Below are positions 1,241 to 9,967 of a DNA stretch of 41,888 nt, in pieces. A program made the translations under genes and the position numbers. Source of the DNA: Thiomicrorhabdus sp. (GTDB lineage Bacteria > Pseudomonadota > Gammaproteobacteria > Thiomicrospirales > Thiomicrospiraceae); the NCBI GenBank assembly GCA_015487015.1, contig WFQP01000114.1, positions 1-41,888 of the forward strand, written 5' to 3'. The stretch's first letter is position 1, and every line of letters starts with the position of its first letter. Below the pieces are notes generated by a model, which saw only the letters and a list, made by a program, of their open reading frames with translations, had not been told where the DNA came from and ran no database searches.

Positions 1241-2259
1241 TGGACTCTGTGATGAATTCAATCTATCCGTGGTTGCAAACACAATGGGCACAATGGAATA
1301 AACATGTACGTCCATTGGGGCATGCGTATCTATTATCATCTCCTAAAGGCATTGGAATTGAACAGTTTGTGGCTCGTGTTTTGCAGAAAACACTGTGCCA
1401 CCAACCGACAACGCAAGGGGCTTGTTTACAGTGCCAAGGTTGCCGTTTGCAACAGGGAAACCAGCATCCTGATTTTTATCATTTAACGCGTTTAGATGAT
1501 AAAAAAGAGATTAATGTTGAGCAAGTTCGTACCTTGGTTGGCAAGCTTAATGAAACCTCTCATCAAGGGGGGTATAAGGTTATTTGGATTGATGAGGTTG
1601 AGTTATTAAACCAGTCGGCCTTTAATGCACTGTTAAAAACCTTAGAAGAACCTGCGCCGAACACGTTGTTTTTATTAACAACCAGTGATGTTGGACGTTT
1701 GCCTGAGACGATTAAAAGTCGTTGCCAACAATTAAATTTCCCCCCCCCTCTTTTAAAGGAGGCCGTTGATTGGTTACAGTTGGCGCTGCCTCAAACAGAC
1801 TTAAAATTGATTCAACGTGCGTTAAGGCTTAATTGGGGCGCCCCCTTAGATGCATTGGCGTGGATTGAGACCAAACAGTTTGAAGAAGATGCACAATGGA
1901 AAGAGGGCTTAAGTCAGTTACAGCAAGGCCAAAAAACGGCCTCACAAGTGGTGGCACTTTGGTTAAAGTGGCCCAACCCTGTTGTGGTGTTTGACTATTT
2001 TTATCTTTGGAGTGTGTCAGCGGTGCGTTCGGTGGTGTATGCCACGGAGCAAAATGTGCGTCTTGAACAGGGTGTCTTTTTGCAAAATGGCTTAGCTTTT
2101 CAACAAGCCACATTGCAGGCCAAGCAGTGTTGGCAGGGAAACGCGAATAAGGAGTTGGTGTTGGAAACCTTGTGTCTTGAGTGGTTAGAGGTGCAACAAA
2201 GCTCAGAATTTTTTAAATCTGTATTTCAATCAAATTATCAAAAAGGAATGTTATCGTGA
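1240..2259 (+). CDS. holB: DNA polymerase III subunit delta-prime
   Basis: Clamp-loader subunit that helps load the beta sliding clamp during replication. The protein is 339 residues from ATG 1240, whose A is the last base of the tmk stop codon. GTG 1237 and ATG 1252 are alternative starts, and no clear ribosome-binding site decides among them. Visible features are a Zn-binding cysteine cluster (CLQCQGC with a preceding Cys), the AAA+ segment VIWIDEVELLNQSAFNALLK, TLEEP and the sensor-1/SRC motif (SRCQQL). The nucleotide-binding loop is degenerate (SSPKGIGIEQ), as is usual for delta-prime. A PPP stretch just after SRCQQLNF is encoded by a C9 homopolymer (1740-1748). Confidence 0.92.
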   Translation: MDSVMNSIYPWLQTQWAQWNKHVRPLGHAYLLSSPKGIGIEQFVARVLQKTLCHQPTTQGACLQCQGCRLQQGNQHPDFYHLTRLDDKKEINVEQVRTLVGKLNETSHQGGYKVIWIDEVELLNQSAFNALLKTLEEPAPNTLFLLTTSDVGRLPETIKSRCQQLNFPPPLLKEAVDWLQLALPQTDLKLIQRALRLNWGAPLDALAWIETKQFEEDAQWKEGLSQLQQGQKTASQVVALWLKWPNPVVVFDYFYLWSVSAVRSVVYATEQNVRLEQGVFLQNGLAFQQATLQAKQCWQGNANKELVLETLCLEWLEVQQSSEFFKSVFQSNYQKGMLS

Positions 2260-3041
2260 TTGTGGACTCTCATTGCCATTTAAATATTTTGCCTGAAGAG
2301 AAAGTAGGCAACTTGGATGACGTGATAGCAAAAGCCCGTGAGCTTGGGGTTAATCGTATTTTATGTGTGGCGATTAATCCTGGCCAGTGGCAAGACGTTT
2401 TGGATTTAGCCGATCGATATGAAGAGGTTTATGCCTCCATTGGTGTGCATCCGTGTGAAGATAAGGATGTTGTGGTAACGGATGAAGCGCTGATTGCTGC
2501 GGCTTCTCACCCAAAGGTGATTGCCATCGGTGAAGTGGGTTTGGATTATTTTCATTTTGAAGAGATGTGTGCGGTAGAAGGGGGTATGAAGTGGCAACAT
2601 GATCGTTTTACACAACACATTCGCATTGCAAAACAGCTCAATAAACCATTAATTATTCACACTCGAAACTCGACTCCTGACTGTTTAGCGATGTTAGCTA
2701 AAGAGGGTGCGGAGCAGGTGGGTGGTATTATGCACTGTTTTGTGGAAGACTTGGATACGGCGGAACAGGCGATAGCTCTGGGCTTTTACATCTCTTTTTC
2801 TGGAATTGTGACCTTTAAAAATGCGAAAGCGTTGAAAGCGGTTGCGACCGCTCTGCCACTGGATAAAATTTTGGTGGAAACCGATGCCCCTTATTTAGCA
2901 CCAATGCCTTTTCGAGGCAAGACGAATCAACCGGGATATACCCGTTATGTGGTGGAAGAAATTGCTAAGTTGAAAGAGCTGCCATTTGAAACCGTTGCCG
3001 AAGCCACCACCGCCAACTTTAATCGTTTATTTAATTTATAA
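2256..3041 (+). CDS. TatD family metal-dependent deoxyribonuclease
   Basis: Metal-dependent hydrolase of the TatD/YcfH group, a TIM-barrel enzyme of 261 residues that typically trims DNA 3' ends. Metal ligands are visible: HCH near the start (DSHCHLN), Glu in GEVGLDY, His in LIIHTRNS, His in GIMHCF and Asp in ETDAPYLAP. The start is GTG 2256, overlapping the holB stop by 4 bases, with AAAAGG about 9 bases upstream. It follows tmk-holB as in many gammaproteobacteria, but the small PilZ gene often found between holB and tatD is missing. Which TatD paralogue (TatD or YcfH type) this is cannot be settled by eye. Confidence 0.9.
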   Translation: MIVDSHCHLNILPEEKVGNLDDVIAKARELGVNRILCVAINPGQWQDVLDLADRYEEVYASIGVHPCEDKDVVVTDEALIAAASHPKVIAIGEVGLDYFHFEEMCAVEGGMKWQHDRFTQHIRIAKQLNKPLIIHTRNSTPDCLAMLAKEGAEQVGGIMHCFVEDLDTAEQAIALGFYISFSGIVTFKNAKALKAVATALPLDKILVETDAPYLAPMPFRGKTNQPGYTRYVVEEIAKLKELPFETVAEATTANFNRLFNL

Positions 3042-3063
3042 AAAGTTATAAAAAGTCCTCCTT

Positions 3064-4887
3064 ATGCGTCCAACCTCTTACTCTTCTGCTCAGCCCGTTA
3101 AAGTAACTGCTACCTCTGAACGATCTTATACGTGGCAGCGTATTTTTGATTTAGTATTGCAACATAAACCTGCTTTAATTAAAGCACATATTATTGCTTT
3201 TTTTGCGACCTTGGCGATTGTACCTTTGCCGTTGTTATTACCCTTTTTAGTGGACGAGGTCTTGCTGGATAAGCCCGGAGTGATCGTGCATTTTTTAAAT
3301 CAGTGGGTGGACAGTGATTGGCACACTCCGGTGTATTACATTGTGGTGATTACGCTAATTACCATTGTGTTGCGGCTAGTTGGTTTGGTACTGGGTGTTT
3401 GGCAGATGCAGCAATTTACGGTGATAGCCAAAGAGGTGGCGTACCAAATTAGGCGTGATTTATTGGCGCGGGTTCAGGGTGTCTCTATGGCGCAATACGA
3501 AACCTTGGGCAGTGGTAGTGTATCGGCCACTATGGTGAATGATGTCAATACCATTGATGGCTTTTTAGGCACAACGGTCGGTAAAATTATTATTGCGGTG
3601 TTCTCGTTGGTGGGAATTTCGATTGTATTGTTTTGGTTACACTGGCAATTGGCGGTATTTATTTTATTGCTTAATCCATTGGTGATCTATTTTACGATGC
3701 GTTTAGGGCGTAATGTTCAGCGGCTTAAAAAAGATGAAAATACGGCGTTGGATGTCTTTCAGCAATCGCTGACTGAGACACTGGATGCGTTGCAACAAGT
3801 GCGTGCAGCCAACCAAGATAAGGCCTTTTTTGATCGTATTCGAGGTCATGCCGATACCATTCGTCAGCAGTCTGAAGCGTATACTTGGAAGAGTGATGCG
3901 GCGAGTCGTTTCTCGTTTATGGTGTTTTTGATTGGATTTGATGTATTTCGTGGTGCAAGCATGTTGGTGGTGGTCTTCTCTGGGTTATCCATCGGTGAGA
4001 TGATGGCCATTTTTGGCTACCTCTGGTTTATGATGGGGCCAGTTCAAGAAATTTTAGCAATTCAATATGGCTACAGTGCTGCCAGTGGTGCACTGCAACG
4101 CATTAACGATGTGTTGGATTTGGATCAAGAGCCACAGTACCCCGCCAAAGTGAATCCATTTAGGGAAAATTCTCCTGTCTCTGTTGCGGTAAAAGACCTC
4201 TCGTTTCGATATTCGGATAAAAAAGAGTGGGTACTCAATAAGCTGAATTTTGAAATCAAGCGGGGTGAAAAACTCGCACTGGTTGGTGAGAGTGGGGGGG
4301 GGAAAACTACTTTGGTTCAGCTCTTACTGGGCTTTTATCAAGCCAACTCTGGAGCTGTTTGTTACGGTGATGCATCGATTACCGAAATTGGTCAGTCGAC
4401 CGTTCGAGAACATGTGGCCACGGTACTGCAACACCCTGTGTTATTTCATCAAAGTATTCGATTTAACTTGACCCTAGGGCGCGAAATGTCGGAGGAGGTG
4501 ATGTGGCAAGCACTGGAGCAAGCACAGCTGGCAAATGTGGTAAAAGGCCTTGATAAGCAGCTTGACTCGATTGTGGGGCGTAATGGCATTAAATTATCTG
4601 GCGGGCAGCGGCAACGTCTGGCTATTGCTAGGATGATTTTACAAGACCCCAGTGTGGTCATTATGGATGAGGCCACATCGGCTTTAGATATGGAAACCGA
4701 ACGTCAGCTGTATCAAGATTTAGCCCCGTTTTTTGAAAATAGAACCACGCTTATTGTGGCACATAGATTAAGCTCGATTAAGCAAGCAGACCGAATTTTG
4801 GTGTTTGAAAAAGGCCGTATTATTGAGTCGGGAACGCATGAGAATCTATTGGATTTAAAGGGGGTTTATGCCTCGCTTTATGCCTGA
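3064..4887 (+). CDS. ABC exporter, fused membrane and ATPase domains
   Basis: A 607-residue half-transporter, presumably a homodimeric inner-membrane exporter. About residues 35-335 form the six-helix transmembrane domain and about 365-607 form the nucleotide-binding domain. Walker A GESGGGKTT is near residue 408, the signature LSGGQRQRLAIARM near 511, Walker B VVIMDEATSALD near 531 and the H-loop LIVAHRLSS near 560. The substrate cannot be read from the sequence; lipid, peptide or drug export are possible. ATG 3064 lacks a good ribosome-binding site. The gene begins 22 bases after tatD and may share its transcript. The Walker A glycines form a G9 tract (4294-4302). Confidence 0.9.
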   Translation: MRPTSYSSAQPVKVTATSERSYTWQRIFDLVLQHKPALIKAHIIAFFATLAIVPLPLLLPFLVDEVLLDKPGVIVHFLNQWVDSDWHTPVYYIVVITLITIVLRLVGLVLGVWQMQQFTVIAKEVAYQIRRDLLARVQGVSMAQYETLGSGSVSATMVNDVNTIDGFLGTTVGKIIIAVFSLVGISIVLFWLHWQLAVFILLLNPLVIYFTMRLGRNVQRLKKDENTALDVFQQSLTETLDALQQVRAANQDKAFFDRIRGHADTIRQQSEAYTWKSDAASRFSFMVFLIGFDVFRGASMLVVVFSGLSIGEMMAIFGYLWFMMGPVQEILAIQYGYSAASGALQRINDVLDLDQEPQYPAKVNPFRENSPVSVAVKDLSFRYSDKKEWVLNKLNFEIKRGEKLALVGESGGGKTTLVQLLLGFYQANSGAVCYGDASITEIGQSTVREHVATVLQHPVLFHQSIRFNLTLGREMSEEVMWQALEQAQLANVVKGLDKQLDSIVGRNGIKLSGGQRQRLAIARMILQDPSVVIMDEATSALDMETERQLYQDLAPFFENRTTLIVAHRLSSIKQADRILVFEKGRIIESGTHENLLDLKGVYASLYA

Positions 4888-5053: not shown

Positions 5054-5482
5054 ATGAAAGCAGTATTACAAACAACCTTAAAAACAGCACTGATTGCCAG
5101 TGTATTAACGTTATCAACTTGGACGCATGCTGCGACCTCACCTATGACCGTTAATGGAGCCACAACGGTGAATGCCGCTGAGGCAAAACAGCTTTGGGAG
5201 GACGGAGCTGTTTTTCTAGATTCAAGAAAGGCGACTGACTGGGAGGCGGGTCATATTCCAGAAGCGGTGCATTTAGACCGTAAAAATCCAGCAGTATATA
5301 ACCTAGATGCTTTGAATGATTTGGCGGCAAAAGATGAAGCGATTGTTTCTTATTGCAATGGTGAGCGTTGTTTGCGTTCTTCAAAAACGGCGGATGATCT
5401 TGTTAAATTAGGATTTAAAAAAGTCTATTATTTTCGAGATGGTTTTCCCGCTTGGAGTGATATGGGCTACCCTATTGAATAG
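5054..5482 (+). CDS. Exported single-domain rhodanese, paralogue 1
   Basis: A 142-residue rhodanese-like sulfurtransferase with an N-terminal signal peptide (residues 1-26, ending THA), so probably periplasmic. The rhodanese fold is shown by FLDSRKATDWEAGHIPEAVH (54-73) and the active-site loop YCNGERCLRSS with Cys101. A second cysteine (Cys106) sits in the loop, giving CxGxxC. It ends FPAWSDMGYPIE, a typical rhodanese C-terminus. The ribosome-binding site GGAG (5042-5045) is 8 bases before ATG 5054. It is roughly half identical by eye to the protein at 8101-8532, and the two enclose a chemoreceptor gene. Rhodaneses move sulfane sulfur between donors and thiols; the partner here is unknown. 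Confidence 0.88.
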   Translation: MKAVLQTTLKTALIASVLTLSTWTHAATSPMTVNGATTVNAAEAKQLWEDGAVFLDSRKATDWEAGHIPEAVHLDRKNPAVYNLDALNDLAAKDEAIVSYCNGERCLRSSKTADDLVKLGFKKVYYFRDGFPAWSDMGYPIE

Positions 5483-5677
5483 TGCTGTTTGATAATTCTT
5501 TCAACGAGGCTTAGTCACTTTTTGCTTGCCTTTATGTGAATAAAATTAATCGCTAGATGTTAAGGGGCTTGTTTAGAAGTTCCTTAAATCTTTCGCTTAA
5601 AACAACACTCTTAAATTTGATATTTACTGAGGGTGGAGAATTTAGGGTATAGACTTATTGTGATTAAAAGGTGCAAT

Positions 5678-7987
5678 ATGAATTTAAAAACAAAAATGGT
5701 TATTGGAAGCATCGCCAGTATCTTTTTAACGGTTCTTATTTTATGGATTATTTTTTCTTTTGAAAAAGGCTTTTTAGAAGAGTCCTATGATAAAAGCCGG
5801 CAAAATGGTTTAAACATTGCCCACCTCTCTTATTTAGACAATACAAAAGCAACGCTTAAGAATCAGCAAGTTACGATTACCCGAAACCGAAAGTTGAAAT
5901 CAGCTATCCGTAAAAAAGACATACAGAAAATCAGTGGAGAGATCTCTCCCTTGCTTAATCGTTTATCTGCCACGCATGTGGTTTCCGATATTTTTATTAT
6001 TGACCCAGATGGTTTGATTCTTTTTGCCTCAGATAGCGCACTGCTTCAAAAAACATTTGATAGTTCATTGGTACGCCAATCTTTAAGTGAGGTTAAGACA
6101 ATCTCTGGACTGGAGAAAAATTTAGATGGCCATATCTCTATCAACACGGTGATTCCGATTAATTCTCGCGGAAAAATATTGGGTGGTGTGATTTTAGCTC
6201 GTTACTATTTTGAGCTTTTACCCAGAATGAAAGCGACGATTAGTGCTGATGTCGCGCTATATGATAGTGGGCGTAACCATTTAATTGCATCAACCAATGA
6301 AGTACTGTTTAAAAAAATAACGGATGGTGTATCGGTTGTTGCTGAAAATCGGGTAATTGGTGATGAAACGTATGATATGGCAGGTGTTCATTTAACCGAT
6401 ACACAAGGCGTAAAGATCGCTCATTTAGTGCGTTTATTTGATGCAACGGCGGCAGCTAAAAAACAGCAGCAATATGTTATCTGGGGCATTGTAGCCATTG
6501 TTGTTTGGTTAATATTGATGATTGTTTTGGTCAACTTGTTTGCAAGAAAGGCCTTTAAACCGTTGAATGAAATGTTAAATGTGGCACAAAAAATTCAGCA
6601 AACAGGCAATATGTCATTAAGAATACAGGTCTCCTCTCAAGATGAAATCGGTCAAGCAGCAACCGCTGTTAATCACACATTAGACTCTGTTAGCACAGTG
6701 ATTGAGGATGCAAATGAAACCTTAAATAAAGTGGCAAAGGGGGACTTTAGTGTTCGTATGTCAATGGCCGCAGAGGGCGATTTAAAAACATTAGAAGTGG
6801 CTGTGAATGAGTCTGTCAGTGCGCTTGATCGAACGATGCAAGCCATTTTAAAAGTGGTGAAAGGCATTGATACTGGTGATTTTTCAGTGCGAATGGATCC
6901 TTGTGTGGAAGCCACAATTCGAGAGCCTGTTGACCAAGCGATGAATCGTATTAGCCACGTTATCGAGGAGGTTAATGCGGTTTTATCAGGCATGGCAAAA
7001 GGGGACTTTTCTCAGAAGGTACAAGTGGCGGCAGAAGGTGAATTAAAAGCGCTGTCAGACAGTACCAATGACAGTGTTCATCAGGCTGAATTGGCGTTAG
7101 AAGAAATTTTGCAGGTTGTCTTTGCATTATCACAAGGGGATTTGGCTCAAACGGTAAAAGGGGCGTATTCTGGAAAATTTGGAGAGGTGGCTAATGGGTT
7201 AAATACCTCTTTAAAAAACCTTTCTTGTTTAATTGCGGATACGCGTTTAAGCATTCATAACTTAGTGGATAATGTGGATCAAATTTACCAAGGCAGTCAG
7301 GATTTAAATGAGCGTACTCAACAGCAGGCGGCTTCATTGGAGGAGTCGACTGAGACAATGGCGAATATTACACAGGCGGTGAATCAAACCAGTGAAAATA
7401 CTCAGTTGGCCAACGAGTTGTCTGATTCGGTTAAAACTCAGGCGGATAAAGGGGCAGAAGTGATGCTCTCTACCATTCAGTCGATGGAAGATATTCGGGA
7501 GGCCAGTCATAAAATTGAGGAAATTATTAGCCTTATTGATAGTATTGCGTTTCAAACTAACTTACTGGCATTGAATGCAGCGGTTGAAGCGGCCAGAGCA
7601 GGTGAGCATGGACGTGGATTTGCTGTGGTAGCCAGTGAGGTGCGTAATTTGGCAGGAAAATCATCCGAAGCCGCAAGTGATATTAAAGGGTTAATTGAAA
7701 ATGCGGTGCAAGCGGTTGAGCAGGGAACTCAGCGTGCAGAACAGTCTGATAAAGCACTGAAAGAGATTGTATTGGGTATTCGAAAAGTCAGTGAGGTGGT
7801 GGCTGAAATTAGCGATGCTTCTTCTGAGCAGTCAACGTCGATCAATCAAATCAGTATTGCGGTGAATGAAATTGATGTGGCCACACAGCAAAATGCAGCT
7901 TTAGTTGAGGAGGCAACGGCTGCATCGGAATCGATGAAAAATGAGACAGAGACTTTAAGTGAATTGGTTAAAAGGTTTAAAGTATAA
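5678..7987 (+). CDS. Methyl-accepting chemotaxis protein with multiple HAMP repeats
   Basis: A 769-residue chemoreceptor. TM1 is at about 7-28, a periplasmic sensor region of about 235 residues (probably Cache-like) follows, and TM2 is at about 266-288. A HAMP domain at 289-342 is followed by about four more HAMP-like units (345-520). These carry recurring motifs [27 protein letters not shown] and SQGDLAQTV. The C-terminal signalling helix has the conserved tip [19 protein letters not shown]. No CheR/CheB tether pentapeptide is seen at the C-terminus (ELVKRFKV). ATG 5678 is chosen over an upstream in-frame GTG (5633) because AAAAGG lies 6 bases before it and TM1 starts directly. It lies between two exported rhodaneses on the same strand, suggesting a link to sulfur-compound sensing (inference). 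Confidence 0.92.
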
Positions 7988-8011
7988 GGTGGTTGGTTAC
8001 ATCATTTTTTC

Positions 8012-8042
8012 TTGATCTTCATGAAAAGCTTGTTAGTATAAT
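8012..8042 (+). promoter_or_regulatory. Candidate sigma-70 promoter for second rhodanese
   Basis: A perfect -10 TATAAT (8037-8042) is preceded by TTGATC (8012-8017) with a 19-base spacer, longer than the optimum of 17. Transcription would start near 8049, about 50 bases before the rhodanese ATG. This would allow the gene to be expressed independently of the chemoreceptor. Confidence 0.4.
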
Positions 8043-8100
8043 GAGAGAAAATTTGATGGTTTCTTGTTGTTGAAATCACGTTTACAAAAGAGGTTATAAA

Positions 8101-8532
8101 ATGAGTATTAGATTGAAAAAAACAGCGGTTGGTTTTATTACAGCAAGTGTTTTAGCGTTTGCTTCATTGACACAAGCCGCGGCTCCCTTAAGTGTTCCTG
8201 GAGCAACAACGGTTACAACAGAAGAGGCTAAAAAATTATGGGATTCTGGCGCGGTCTTTATTGATTCCCGTAAAAAAGAGGATTGGGAAGATGGCCATAT
8301 TGCAAAGGCCGTTCACTTGGATCGTGGTGATCGTGAAAACTATACGCGTGATAAAGTGAGTAATATGTTCAAGAAAGATCAAGCGTTGGTCACGTATTGT
8401 TACGGAAAGGTTTGCACGCGTTCTTCACAAATGGCGGCAGATTTAGTAGGTGTGGGTTATACCAATGTCTATTTTTATCGTGAAGGGTTTCCGGGTTGGT
8501 CATTTGCTGGATACCCAATTGAGAGTAAATAA
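8101..8532 (+). CDS. Exported single-domain rhodanese, paralogue 2
   Basis: A 143-residue paralogue of the protein at 5054-5482. A signal peptide occupies about residues 1-27 (ending TQAAA), so periplasmic location is expected. Shared landmarks are PGATTV, AKKLWDSGAVFIDSRK, HIAKAVHLDR and the active-site loop YCYGKVCTRSS, with two cysteines again in CxGxxC spacing, then FPGWSFAGYPIE. AAAAGAGG (8086-8093) provides a ribosome-binding site 7 bases before ATG. It follows the chemoreceptor by 113 bases and ends before a bidirectional terminator. The substrate is unknown; thiosulfate, polysulfide or a protein persulfide are all possible. Confidence 0.88.
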   Translation: MSIRLKKTAVGFITASVLAFASLTQAAAPLSVPGATTVTTEEAKKLWDSGAVFIDSRKKEDWEDGHIAKAVHLDRGDRENYTRDKVSNMFKKDQALVTYCYGKVCTRSSQMAADLVGVGYTNVYFYREGFPGWSFAGYPIESK

Positions 8533-8581
8533 GGGTTAAAAAAGCTTTCAAAAGCTCTAAAAGCATTTTATCTTAGATAAG

Positions 8582-8620
8582 AAAGCCACATTGCACTGAG
8601 TTGTAATGTGGCTTTTTTTG
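8582..8620. terminator. Bidirectional rho-independent terminator
   Basis: The 11-bp arms AAAGCCACATT (8582-8592) and AATGTGGCTTT (8605-8615) form a hairpin followed by a T-run on the plus strand. A-residues flank the left side, so it can also stop transcription of the converging msr fusion gene. Confidence 0.8.
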
Positions 8621-8638: not shown

Positions 8639-9967
8639 TTACTCCTCTTTATCTGCAACAAATTTAAGCACATTGCCATTGATGCAATAGCGTTTAAAGG
8701 TAGGAGCCGGTCCGTCATTAAAGACATGGCCTAAATGAATGCCAGAGCTGGCACTGCGTACTTCAACGCGTTCCACTCCAAGGGTTTTGTCTACGTGTGT
8801 GGTGATTGCCCCTTCAACAGGGTTAAAAAAGCTTGGCCAGCCTGTGCCACTTTTAAACTTGGTGTCGCTTCTAAATAGGCGGGCTCCGGTAATTGGATCC
8901 ACAAAATACCCTGGACGAGTTTCGTCTAGGTGAGAGCCTGTAAAGGGACGTTCGGTACCCTCTTCAAAGGCAATTTTTCGTTGTTCAGGTGTGAGCAGGC
9001 GCTGCCCTAGCCACTTCCAAAATCGTGCTTTATCACCGTTATACCCCGTGTAGCGAGAGACTTCTTTACCTTGTTCAAATAACACAATGGTGGGGGTTGC
9101 AAAGAGTGGCTTTTCTAATGCCCACCCTTTAGGTGGATTGGTATTTAAGGTAGTGGTAATGGCCACACCAGATTGCCAGTGATTCAGTATTTCTTCTTTA
9201 AATTTTTGACAGTATGCGCACTCTTTTGATTCAAAAACAATCAATTGTCTTTTGCTGTTAAGTTCTTTTGAGTCGAGTTGTTTGACTGGGAGAGAAAGTG
9301 TATTGCTATTTGGGTAGGCCACATTTGTTCCTCCCAATCCACAATAACCATTAGGGTTCTTTTTCAGGTAGTCTTGATGGTAGGTCTCGGCTGTAATGTA
9401 GTTTTTAAGTGGTGCAATTTCCGTGGTAATTTCAGGATAGCCTGCTTTTGTTAAAGCAGTTTGATAGAGGGCTTTGGTTTGTTCGGCTACCTCTTTTTCC
9501 TTCACTGTTTGATAGTAAATGGCACTGCGATAATTGGTGCCGATGTCATTTCCTTGGCGATTGCCTTGAGTTGGATTGTGGTTTTCCCAGAATTTAATCA
9601 ACACTTGTTCAAGCGAAACGATTTCGGGTTGGTAGGTGACTTTAATCACTTCGGCATGATTTCGTTCAGTGCTTTGACCAGAGCGAATGTGTTTCTCTAA
9701 ATCAAGTACATCTTGATAGCTTGCTTGTGGATTATCTCCTCCTGCATAACCGCTTTCTACATTGGTGACACCGTTGAGTTCAGAGAGGCGTTTTTCGGCT
9801 CCCCAAAAACAGCCCATACCCAGTACAATTGTTTTAGTTTGAGGTGTTTGGGAGGGTTTGAGTGTTGTCATATTGGCTTCCTTGGCGTAGCTGTACGAGC
9901 TTAATAAAGTGATGGTAAACAGTGTTATAAAAAAATTGCGTAGCATTGTAATAAGGAGAGATGGCAT
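8639..9967 (-). CDS. Exported MsrA / thioredoxin-like / MsrB fusion protein
   Basis: A 442-residue methionine sulfoxide reductase fusion with a signal peptide (hydrophobic 8-26, ending SYSYAK), so likely periplasmic. MsrA occupies about 45-215 with catalytic Cys53 in GMGCFWG and a probable resolving Cys209 (NGYCGLGG). A thioredoxin-like segment at about 238-322 contains CAYC (250, 253) and TPTIVLF. MsrB occupies about 325-440 (GTERPFTG, SGTGWPSF, HLGHVF) with catalytic Cys428 in RYCINGN. The usual zinc CxxC of MsrB is replaced by YFVDPITGA, so this MsrB lacks that zinc pair. The order A-Trx-B differs from the Neisseria PilB-type Trx-A-B fusion. ATG 9967 is used; ATG 9946 is also possible. It repairs oxidised methionines in exported proteins (family knowledge). 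Confidence 0.93.
   Translation of the reverse strand: MPSLLITMLRNFFITLFTITLLSSYSYAKEANMTTLKPSQTPQTKTIVLGMGCFWGAEKRLSELNGVTNVESGYAGGDNPQASYQDVLDLEKHIRSGQSTERNHAEVIKVTYQPEIVSLEQVLIKFWENHNPTQGNRQGNDIGTNYRSAIYYQTVKEKEVAEQTKALYQTALTKAGYPEITTEIAPLKNYITAETYHQDYLKKNPNGYCGLGGTNVAYPNSNTLSLPVKQLDSKELNSKRQLIVFESKECAYCQKFKEEILNHWQSGVAITTTLNTNPPKGWALEKPLFATPTIVLFEQGKEVSRYTGYNGDKARFWKWLGQRLLTPEQRKIAFEEGTERPFTGSHLDETRPGYFVDPITGARLFRSDTKFKSGTGWPSFFNPVEGAITTHVDKTLGVERVEVRSASSGIHLGHVFNDGPAPTFKRYCINGNVLKFVADKEE

Follow-up and report, generated by a model that had tools for sequence, protein, structure and literature searches.

The stretch of DNA analysed here, a 41,888-nucleotide contig of Thiomicrorhabdus sp. 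(WFQP01000114.1, hereafter the window), carries on its + strand the gene of a poly-HAMP chemoreceptor, or methyl-accepting chemotaxis protein (MCP), lying between the genes of two exported rhodaneses, rhoA and rhoB. The single-domain rhodanese rhoA (5054..5482, 142 residues) and the second rhodanese rhoB (8101..8532, 143 residues) match the Pfam Rhodanese family with E values of 2.4e-16 and 1.9e-16 and scores of 60.5 and 60.8 bits, respectively, against a gathering score of 22.2. The two proteins share 51% identity over 142 residues, and their Sec-type signal peptides, recognised by eye without a predictor, end at WTHA-ATSP and LTQA-AAPL. The MCP gene (5678..7987, + strand) had been listed as an open reading frame from a GTG at 5633, and a 769-residue homologue in the related genome G044 (locus L038) suggests the ATG at 5678 as its start. 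The receptor comprises a periplasmic input domain of 240 residues (5756..6475), HAMP and HAMP_2 matches (6536..6829) with further HAMP-like repeats seen by eye downstream, and a signalling domain (7415..7879) matching MCPsignal (PF00015) with 165.9 bits against a gathering score of 34.6. The genome of the window (G000) holds 13 MCPsignal matches in total. A hairpin (8579..8618) with a stem of 17 pairs, a loop of 6 bases and a T run separates rhoB from the convergent msrAB gene; the 96-base stretch that holds it folds at -26.9 kcal/mol, with a z score of -3.42 and only 1 of 200 shuffles as good. Reading frames, Pfam matches and active-site loops thus agree with the initial annotation, which had described two signal-peptide-bearing rhodaneses with CxGxxC loops flanking a poly-HAMP chemoreceptor on one strand, and the hairpin agrees with its terminator at the cluster end. 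A promoter/terminator scan, which itself missed the rhoB terminator, listed no terminator-like site on the + strand between rhoA, the MCP gene and rhoB, and found fewer promoter-like sites in the window than in shuffled sequences. The gaps of about 195 bp between rhoA and the MCP gene and of 113 bp between the MCP gene and rhoB make separate promoters for the three genes possible. Rfam and tRNA scans of the window found nothing, and conservation in alignments of the upstream and intergenic regions was limited to short blocks.

Comparison within the family of the window's genome revealed that conservation centres on a single rhodanese gene placed immediately 5' of a receptor gene, a pairing that is well supported. 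Among 62 family genomes searched at E ≤ 1e-18, 25 carry the rhodanese. A same-strand MCP gene adjoins it in 24 of the 25, the exception being G038. At L060 a contig end cuts the MCP before its signalling domain, and at L046 a stop lies within the rhodanese frame. The gap between the two genes is often shorter than 35 bp, or the frames overlap. Genomic contexts vary, many clusters following the same ABC exporter gene as in the window and others not. Three genomes contain two pairs each, which are in tandem in G036 (L043; rhodanese-MCP-rhodanese-MCP), dispersed in G061 (L041 and L042) and found at L056 and L150 in G054. The reverse search used a sensor-domain profile (A2) built from linked loci only, with a family cut-off of E ≤ 1e-12, and yielded 25 matches in 22 of 60 genomes, 24 of them adjoining a rhodanese. 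At the 25th, in G048 (L196), a frameshifted rhodanese relic (about 4117-4460) occupies the usual place beside an MCP gene with a stop (1756-4059), and rhodanese and receptor seem to be decaying together. Over the 60 family genomes, both partners are present in 21, the rhodanese only in three (G038, G003 and G004), the sensor only in one, which is the relic case, and neither in 35.

The second rhodanese is the younger of the two copies. In a tree computed from 74 rows over 120 columns, the rhoB proteins of five genomes of the genus (G000, G044, G045, G039 and G038) form one clade (support 100/100, stem 0.58), nested inside the window-type rhoA group (98/91). With dS near saturation, six rhoA pairs gave ratios of nonsynonymous to synonymous substitution (dN/dS) between 0.06 and 0.10, and five rhoB pairs gave values between 0.03 and 0.08, one further rhoB pair not being computable. 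Therefore, rhoB is a retained, diverged, lineage-specific duplicate of rhoA under purifying selection. The order rhoA-MCP-rhoB is not limited to the window's genome, as it recurs in three further genomes of the genus, G045 (L037), G044 (L038) and G039 (L039, where the contig breaks within rhoB), and a rhodanese-MCP-rhodanese order has arisen independently in another family (G277, L123), making a chance arrangement unlikely. Two Thiomicrorhabdus metagenome-assembled genome (MAG) contigs with the cluster that came from a contig search are G045:C215 and G044:C142 again and not independent. In G038 (L044:8305-8736), rhoB directly follows the ABC exporter gene and lacks both rhoA and an MCP gene as neighbours, possibly through a deletion between two rhodanese copies. 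Two rhodaneses around a receptor were considered as the functional unit and rejected, as rhoB is nested in the rhoA group and most family loci hold one rhodanese per MCP. The duplication around the receptor, which the initial annotation had singled out as unusual, is thus a lineage-specific addition to a pair that is conserved far more widely.

Beyond the family, a rhodanese profile (A1) was searched against 369 genomes of the class at E ≤ 1e-25. It matched 27 genomes including that of the window, and the other 26 provide 33 loci. In 27 of the 33, the direct same-strand neighbour is a signal transducer, namely an MCP in 20, a GGDEF or GGDEF-EAL protein in four and a histidine kinase in three. 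The transducer mostly lies downstream of the rhodanese, but upstream in L137 and L138; at L129 the contig holds the sensor part only, and L132 was read in two frames. The six loci without a direct transducer neighbour are L121, L128, L134, L135, L139 and L145, the last of which has a HAMP-PAS neighbour in which no output domain was found. At L121 (5893-10760, G154), downstream of the rhodanese come a phosphonate-binding-type periplasmic protein and then a PAS-GGDEF-EAL protein. For controls we took the 30 best-scoring of 127 matches, a non-random choice, with 1.5-kb flanks, and dropped L224, which proved to be a module locus. None of the remaining 29 control rhodanese loci, from 10 genomes, has an MCP neighbour within these flanks. 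Three adjoin a GGDEF-EAL gene, with a GGDEF frame some 800 bp away at L214 left uncounted, and three (L198, L201 and L202) match A1 at 1e-22 to 1e-23 although no sensor gene adjoins them.

Two results weigh against an exclusive partnership. In a 398-genome sample of the phylum, which gave 10 further loci (four in the class and six outside), the MCP link was found in only one (L169); the four class loci carry CDSE-type loops. In addition, the A2 search of the 369 class genomes gave 76 matches in 56 genomes, the window's included, of which 27 were loci already known and 20 were examined, the remaining 29 being 28 weaker matches and one at a contig end (G214:C69). Among the 20, a CNGxxC rhodanese adjoins in 11 and no rhodanese lies next door in nine. 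By eye, CheW/CheR-like genes adjoin three of these nine, and another MCP gene follows in three. An exclusive occurrence of the sensor domain with rhodaneses, true in the family, is therefore false in the class, and the sensor-domain family is older or wider than the rhodanese partnership. The linkage is strong for CNG-type rhodaneses near the A1 profile and fades with distance. A search of plasmids gave one distant match.

Several other rhodaneses are joined to sensors or fused to larger proteins. In the window's own genome (contig C140, L209:901-1890), a tandem-domain rhodanese with a signal-peptide-like start overlaps a HAMP-GGDEF-EAL gene (1824 onward). Similar arrangements occur in G033 and G055 (L229 and L230); here a rhodanese of another class is likewise linked to a sensor. 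In G670 (L163:5351-7849), a nucleotide-cyclase/TPR protein has a module-type rhodanese as its C-terminal part, and in a Haliea MAG (L036:3125-5557) a comparable long frame carries a rhodanese at its C-terminal end.

The linkage could in principle reflect co-regulated but functionally independent neighbours, in which a detoxifying exported rhodanese is by chance inherited next to an MCP gene. The gap of about 195 bp in the window and the rhodaneses kept without a transducer in L044, L128, L134 and L135 would suit this explanation. However, pairs in unrelated genomic contexts, with overlapping frames or short gaps and several output types, together with the presence and absence counts in the 60 family genomes, make it very improbable.

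The association with sulfur oxidation was assessed by SoxB (TIGR04486, E ≤ 1e-60), which the window's genome possesses. In the class, SoxB was found in 23 of 26 genomes with the rhodanese compared with 13 of 51 without (handles G062-G117 minus carriers; Fisher p = 1.3e-7), and among genomes with at least five MCPs in 22 of 25 compared with 7 of 16 (p = 0.0043). Two of the 51, G082 and G095, hold a weaker module; counting them as carriers changes the values to 24/28 versus 12/49 (p = 2.2e-7) and, with at least five MCPs, to 23/27 versus 6/14 (p = 0.0097). Counted by family label, the values are 18/21 versus 13/51 (p = 3.3e-6), genomes of the same clade not being independent. The enrichment fits a sulfur signal. 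The possible sulfur chemotaxis module of the initial annotation is partly supported, by the export signals, the conserved linkage and the SoxB enrichment; the receptor is not always an MCP and can be a GGDEF, GGDEF-EAL or histidine kinase protein.

The two members of the pair also diverge in parallel. Pairwise distances of the rhodaneses and of the sensor domains correlate with a Mantel r of 0.853 over 46 pairs, the maximum of 5000 permutations being 0.227. The value is 0.89 within 22 family pairs and 0.86 within the other 24, a set that includes L150 of the family genome G054. The linked transducers of L061, L062, L137 and L169 and the two contig-cut ones, of L060 and the second MCP of L043, were left out of the calculation. 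Part of the correlation is owed to the common descent of the genomes. Better evidence comes from the paralogous pairs in G061, G054 and G070, where the nearest relatives are the same, or almost the same, whichever member is compared; such matching was not clearly seen for the two kinase pairs of G097.

The active-site loops of both rhodaneses are of the CxGxxC type, with CNGERCLR in rhoA (5354..5377; C101-N-G-E-R-C106-L-R108) and CYGKVCTR in rhoB (8398..8421). Both C101 and C106 are invariant across 47 aligned rows, and the Asn after the first cysteine is nearly invariant but replaced by Tyr in rhoB. The usual loop of single-domain rhodaneses is C-x4-R, and the C-x4-C-x-R loop of the window is longer. 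Both proteins pass the gathering score of the Rhodanese superfamily (PF00581) and contain the catalytic loop cysteine. At 38.8 and 38.0 bits, they stay below the 102-bit cut-off of the GlpE equivalog (NF001195), at 51 and 58 bits below the 115 bits of the rhodanese-related (seleno)protein LYCAU (NF041203), and at 45.1 and 45.5 bits below the 128.05 bits of the PQQ_CXXCW protein (TIGR03865). By sequence they belong to the same rhodanese family as GlpE, PspE and YgaP, with GlpE and YgaP among their PDB matches. They differ from these three in being exported and receptor-linked and in having the second conserved loop cysteine.

The invariance of both loop cysteines would also suit a redox sensor, in which they open and close as a disulfide with the periplasmic oxidant level and the receptor reads this state for energy or redox taxis. 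The gene convergent with rhoB (8639-9967), named by eye, encodes a fusion of MsrA, a thioredoxin-like stretch and MsrB with a signal-peptide-like start. This methionine sulfoxide reductase just downstream would agree with redox sensing, as would the pair of cysteines found in the input domain of certain kinase and GGDEF sensors linked to a rhodanese. However, the rhodanese fold, residues D56, R58 and R108 and the SoxB enrichment indicate sulfane-sulfur chemistry, and among family regions msrAB adjoins the cluster only in window-type genomes. We therefore consider redox sensing quite unlikely. As a part of the module itself, msrAB was rejected on the same distribution and on its convergent orientation.

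The input domain of the window receptor, according to hydropathy, an AlphaFold2 model and structural matches, comprises two PAS-like modules in tandem, bounded on either side by a membrane helix, which is a dCache arrangement. No Pfam domain matched this region at E ≤ 0.001, dCache_3 (PF14827) included, although the linked relatives L136 and L127 score above the cut-off, and the sensor profile found nothing below E 0.6 in a sequence search of the PDB. Most linked sensors have a periplasmic domain of about 240 residues, which is free of cysteine in 46 of 50, as it is in the window. Therefore, the covalent transfer of a persulfide onto the window receptor is unsupported and was rejected. A subgroup of input domains has two cysteines (L136, L147, L148, L169, L284-L289, L292, L294 and L295). 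Its outputs are kinase or GGDEF/EAL transducers, except for the MCP of L169 and the open frame of L286 with no output detected, and its members are mostly paired with CNGxxC rhodaneses, L287 having none nearby. Covalent sulfur exchange is possible in this group.

In the main rival explanation, a small molecule binds directly to the CitA-like distal pocket of the receptor, and the rhodanese makes, removes or buffers this molecule (e.g. sulfite or sulfide from thiosulfate) without contacting the receptor. In a weak profile alignment (probability 13.6%), the citrate contacts T58, R66 and H69 of CitA are aligned with F, I and A of the window domain. Citrate-type binding by this domain was rejected, though the evidence against it from that alignment is weak. 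Since the close pairing and the parallel divergence also exceed what a shared metabolite would need, we regard direct ligand binding as rather unlikely.

We propose instead, with somewhat more confidence than doubt, a rhodanese-receptor sensory module in which a dedicated periplasmic rhodanese reports sulfane-sulfur chemistry to its receptor in a LuxP-LuxQ-like manner. The proposal builds on the gene linkage, the several outputs on one input-domain family, the export leader read from the sequence, the two-cysteine loop and the Cys-free dCache domain, and further on the parallel divergence, the SoxB association and the purifying selection. The exported rhodanese would take sulfane sulfur from a compound such as thiosulfate or polysulfide and load it onto C101, and C106 would make the loading reversible. 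The dCache domain of the adjoining receptor would read the rhodanese state (persulfide, disulfide or free thiol) non-covalently, by docking, and the signal would then travel via the poly-HAMP stalk to the chemotaxis output. With CYG instead of CNG in its loop, the later, selected duplicate rhoB is probably adapted to a different sulfur species or redox range. We infer the sulfur loading, the ligand, the docking and the direction of taxis, the docking by analogy with LuxPQ. Since rhodaneses of the same type adjoin sensor genes in many other bacteria, they probably help those sensors to detect sulfur compounds. More tentatively, the pairs might constitute a class of enzyme-gated receptors in sulfur-oxidizing Gammaproteobacteria, where the loaded two-cysteine rhodanese is the ligand of a dCache domain wired to chemotaxis, cyclic-di-GMP and two-component outputs, and covalent hand-over may occur in the subclass with two cysteines.

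To our knowledge, it is little understood how sulfur oxidizers find reduced sulfur at the receptor level, or how any cell senses extracytoplasmic sulfane sulfur. In the open-access full-text literature, subscription papers being outside its coverage, we found no paper on such a rhodanese-receptor pair and no receptor for extracytoplasmic sulfane sulfur. The module offers a defined gene pair, and variants with different outputs, for direct tests of sulfur sensing. Known systems share parts of it. LuxP of Vibrio is a separate soluble periplasmic partner that reports autoinducer-2 (AI-2) to the tandem-PAS receptor LuxQ. The window domain resembles the LuxQ-type two-PAS arrangement over about 200 residues (3c30, 3c38 and 2hje; complexes 2hj9 and 1zhh). 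In contrast to LuxP, the partner here has a rhodanese fold with two loop cysteines (a Rhodanese match only) rather than a binding-protein fold, the docking is putative, and the linked outputs are MCPs, cyclic-di-GMP enzymes and kinases. The dCache chemoreceptors Tlp3, Mlp24, PctA and TlpA have the same input-domain fold and position and the same MCP output as the window receptor; several were solved with amino acids bound, according to their structure titles, whereas the window receptor is paired with an exported rhodanese gene. The three citrate-contact positions of the CitA/DcuS-type sensor PAS domains appear not to be conserved in the window domain, judged by the weak alignment above. In the sulfur oxidizer Acidithiobacillus caldus, the membrane sensor kinase of RsrS-RsrR was proposed to sense periplasmic tetrathionate (PMC5093147). 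RsrS is an EnvZ-like kinase, and in the available part of that source rhodanese genes figure only as measured sulfur-metabolism transcripts and not as sensor partners (PMC5093147). Partner-assisted tandem-PAS receptors are thus known, but a partner of sulfurtransferase fold common to several output types appears to be new.

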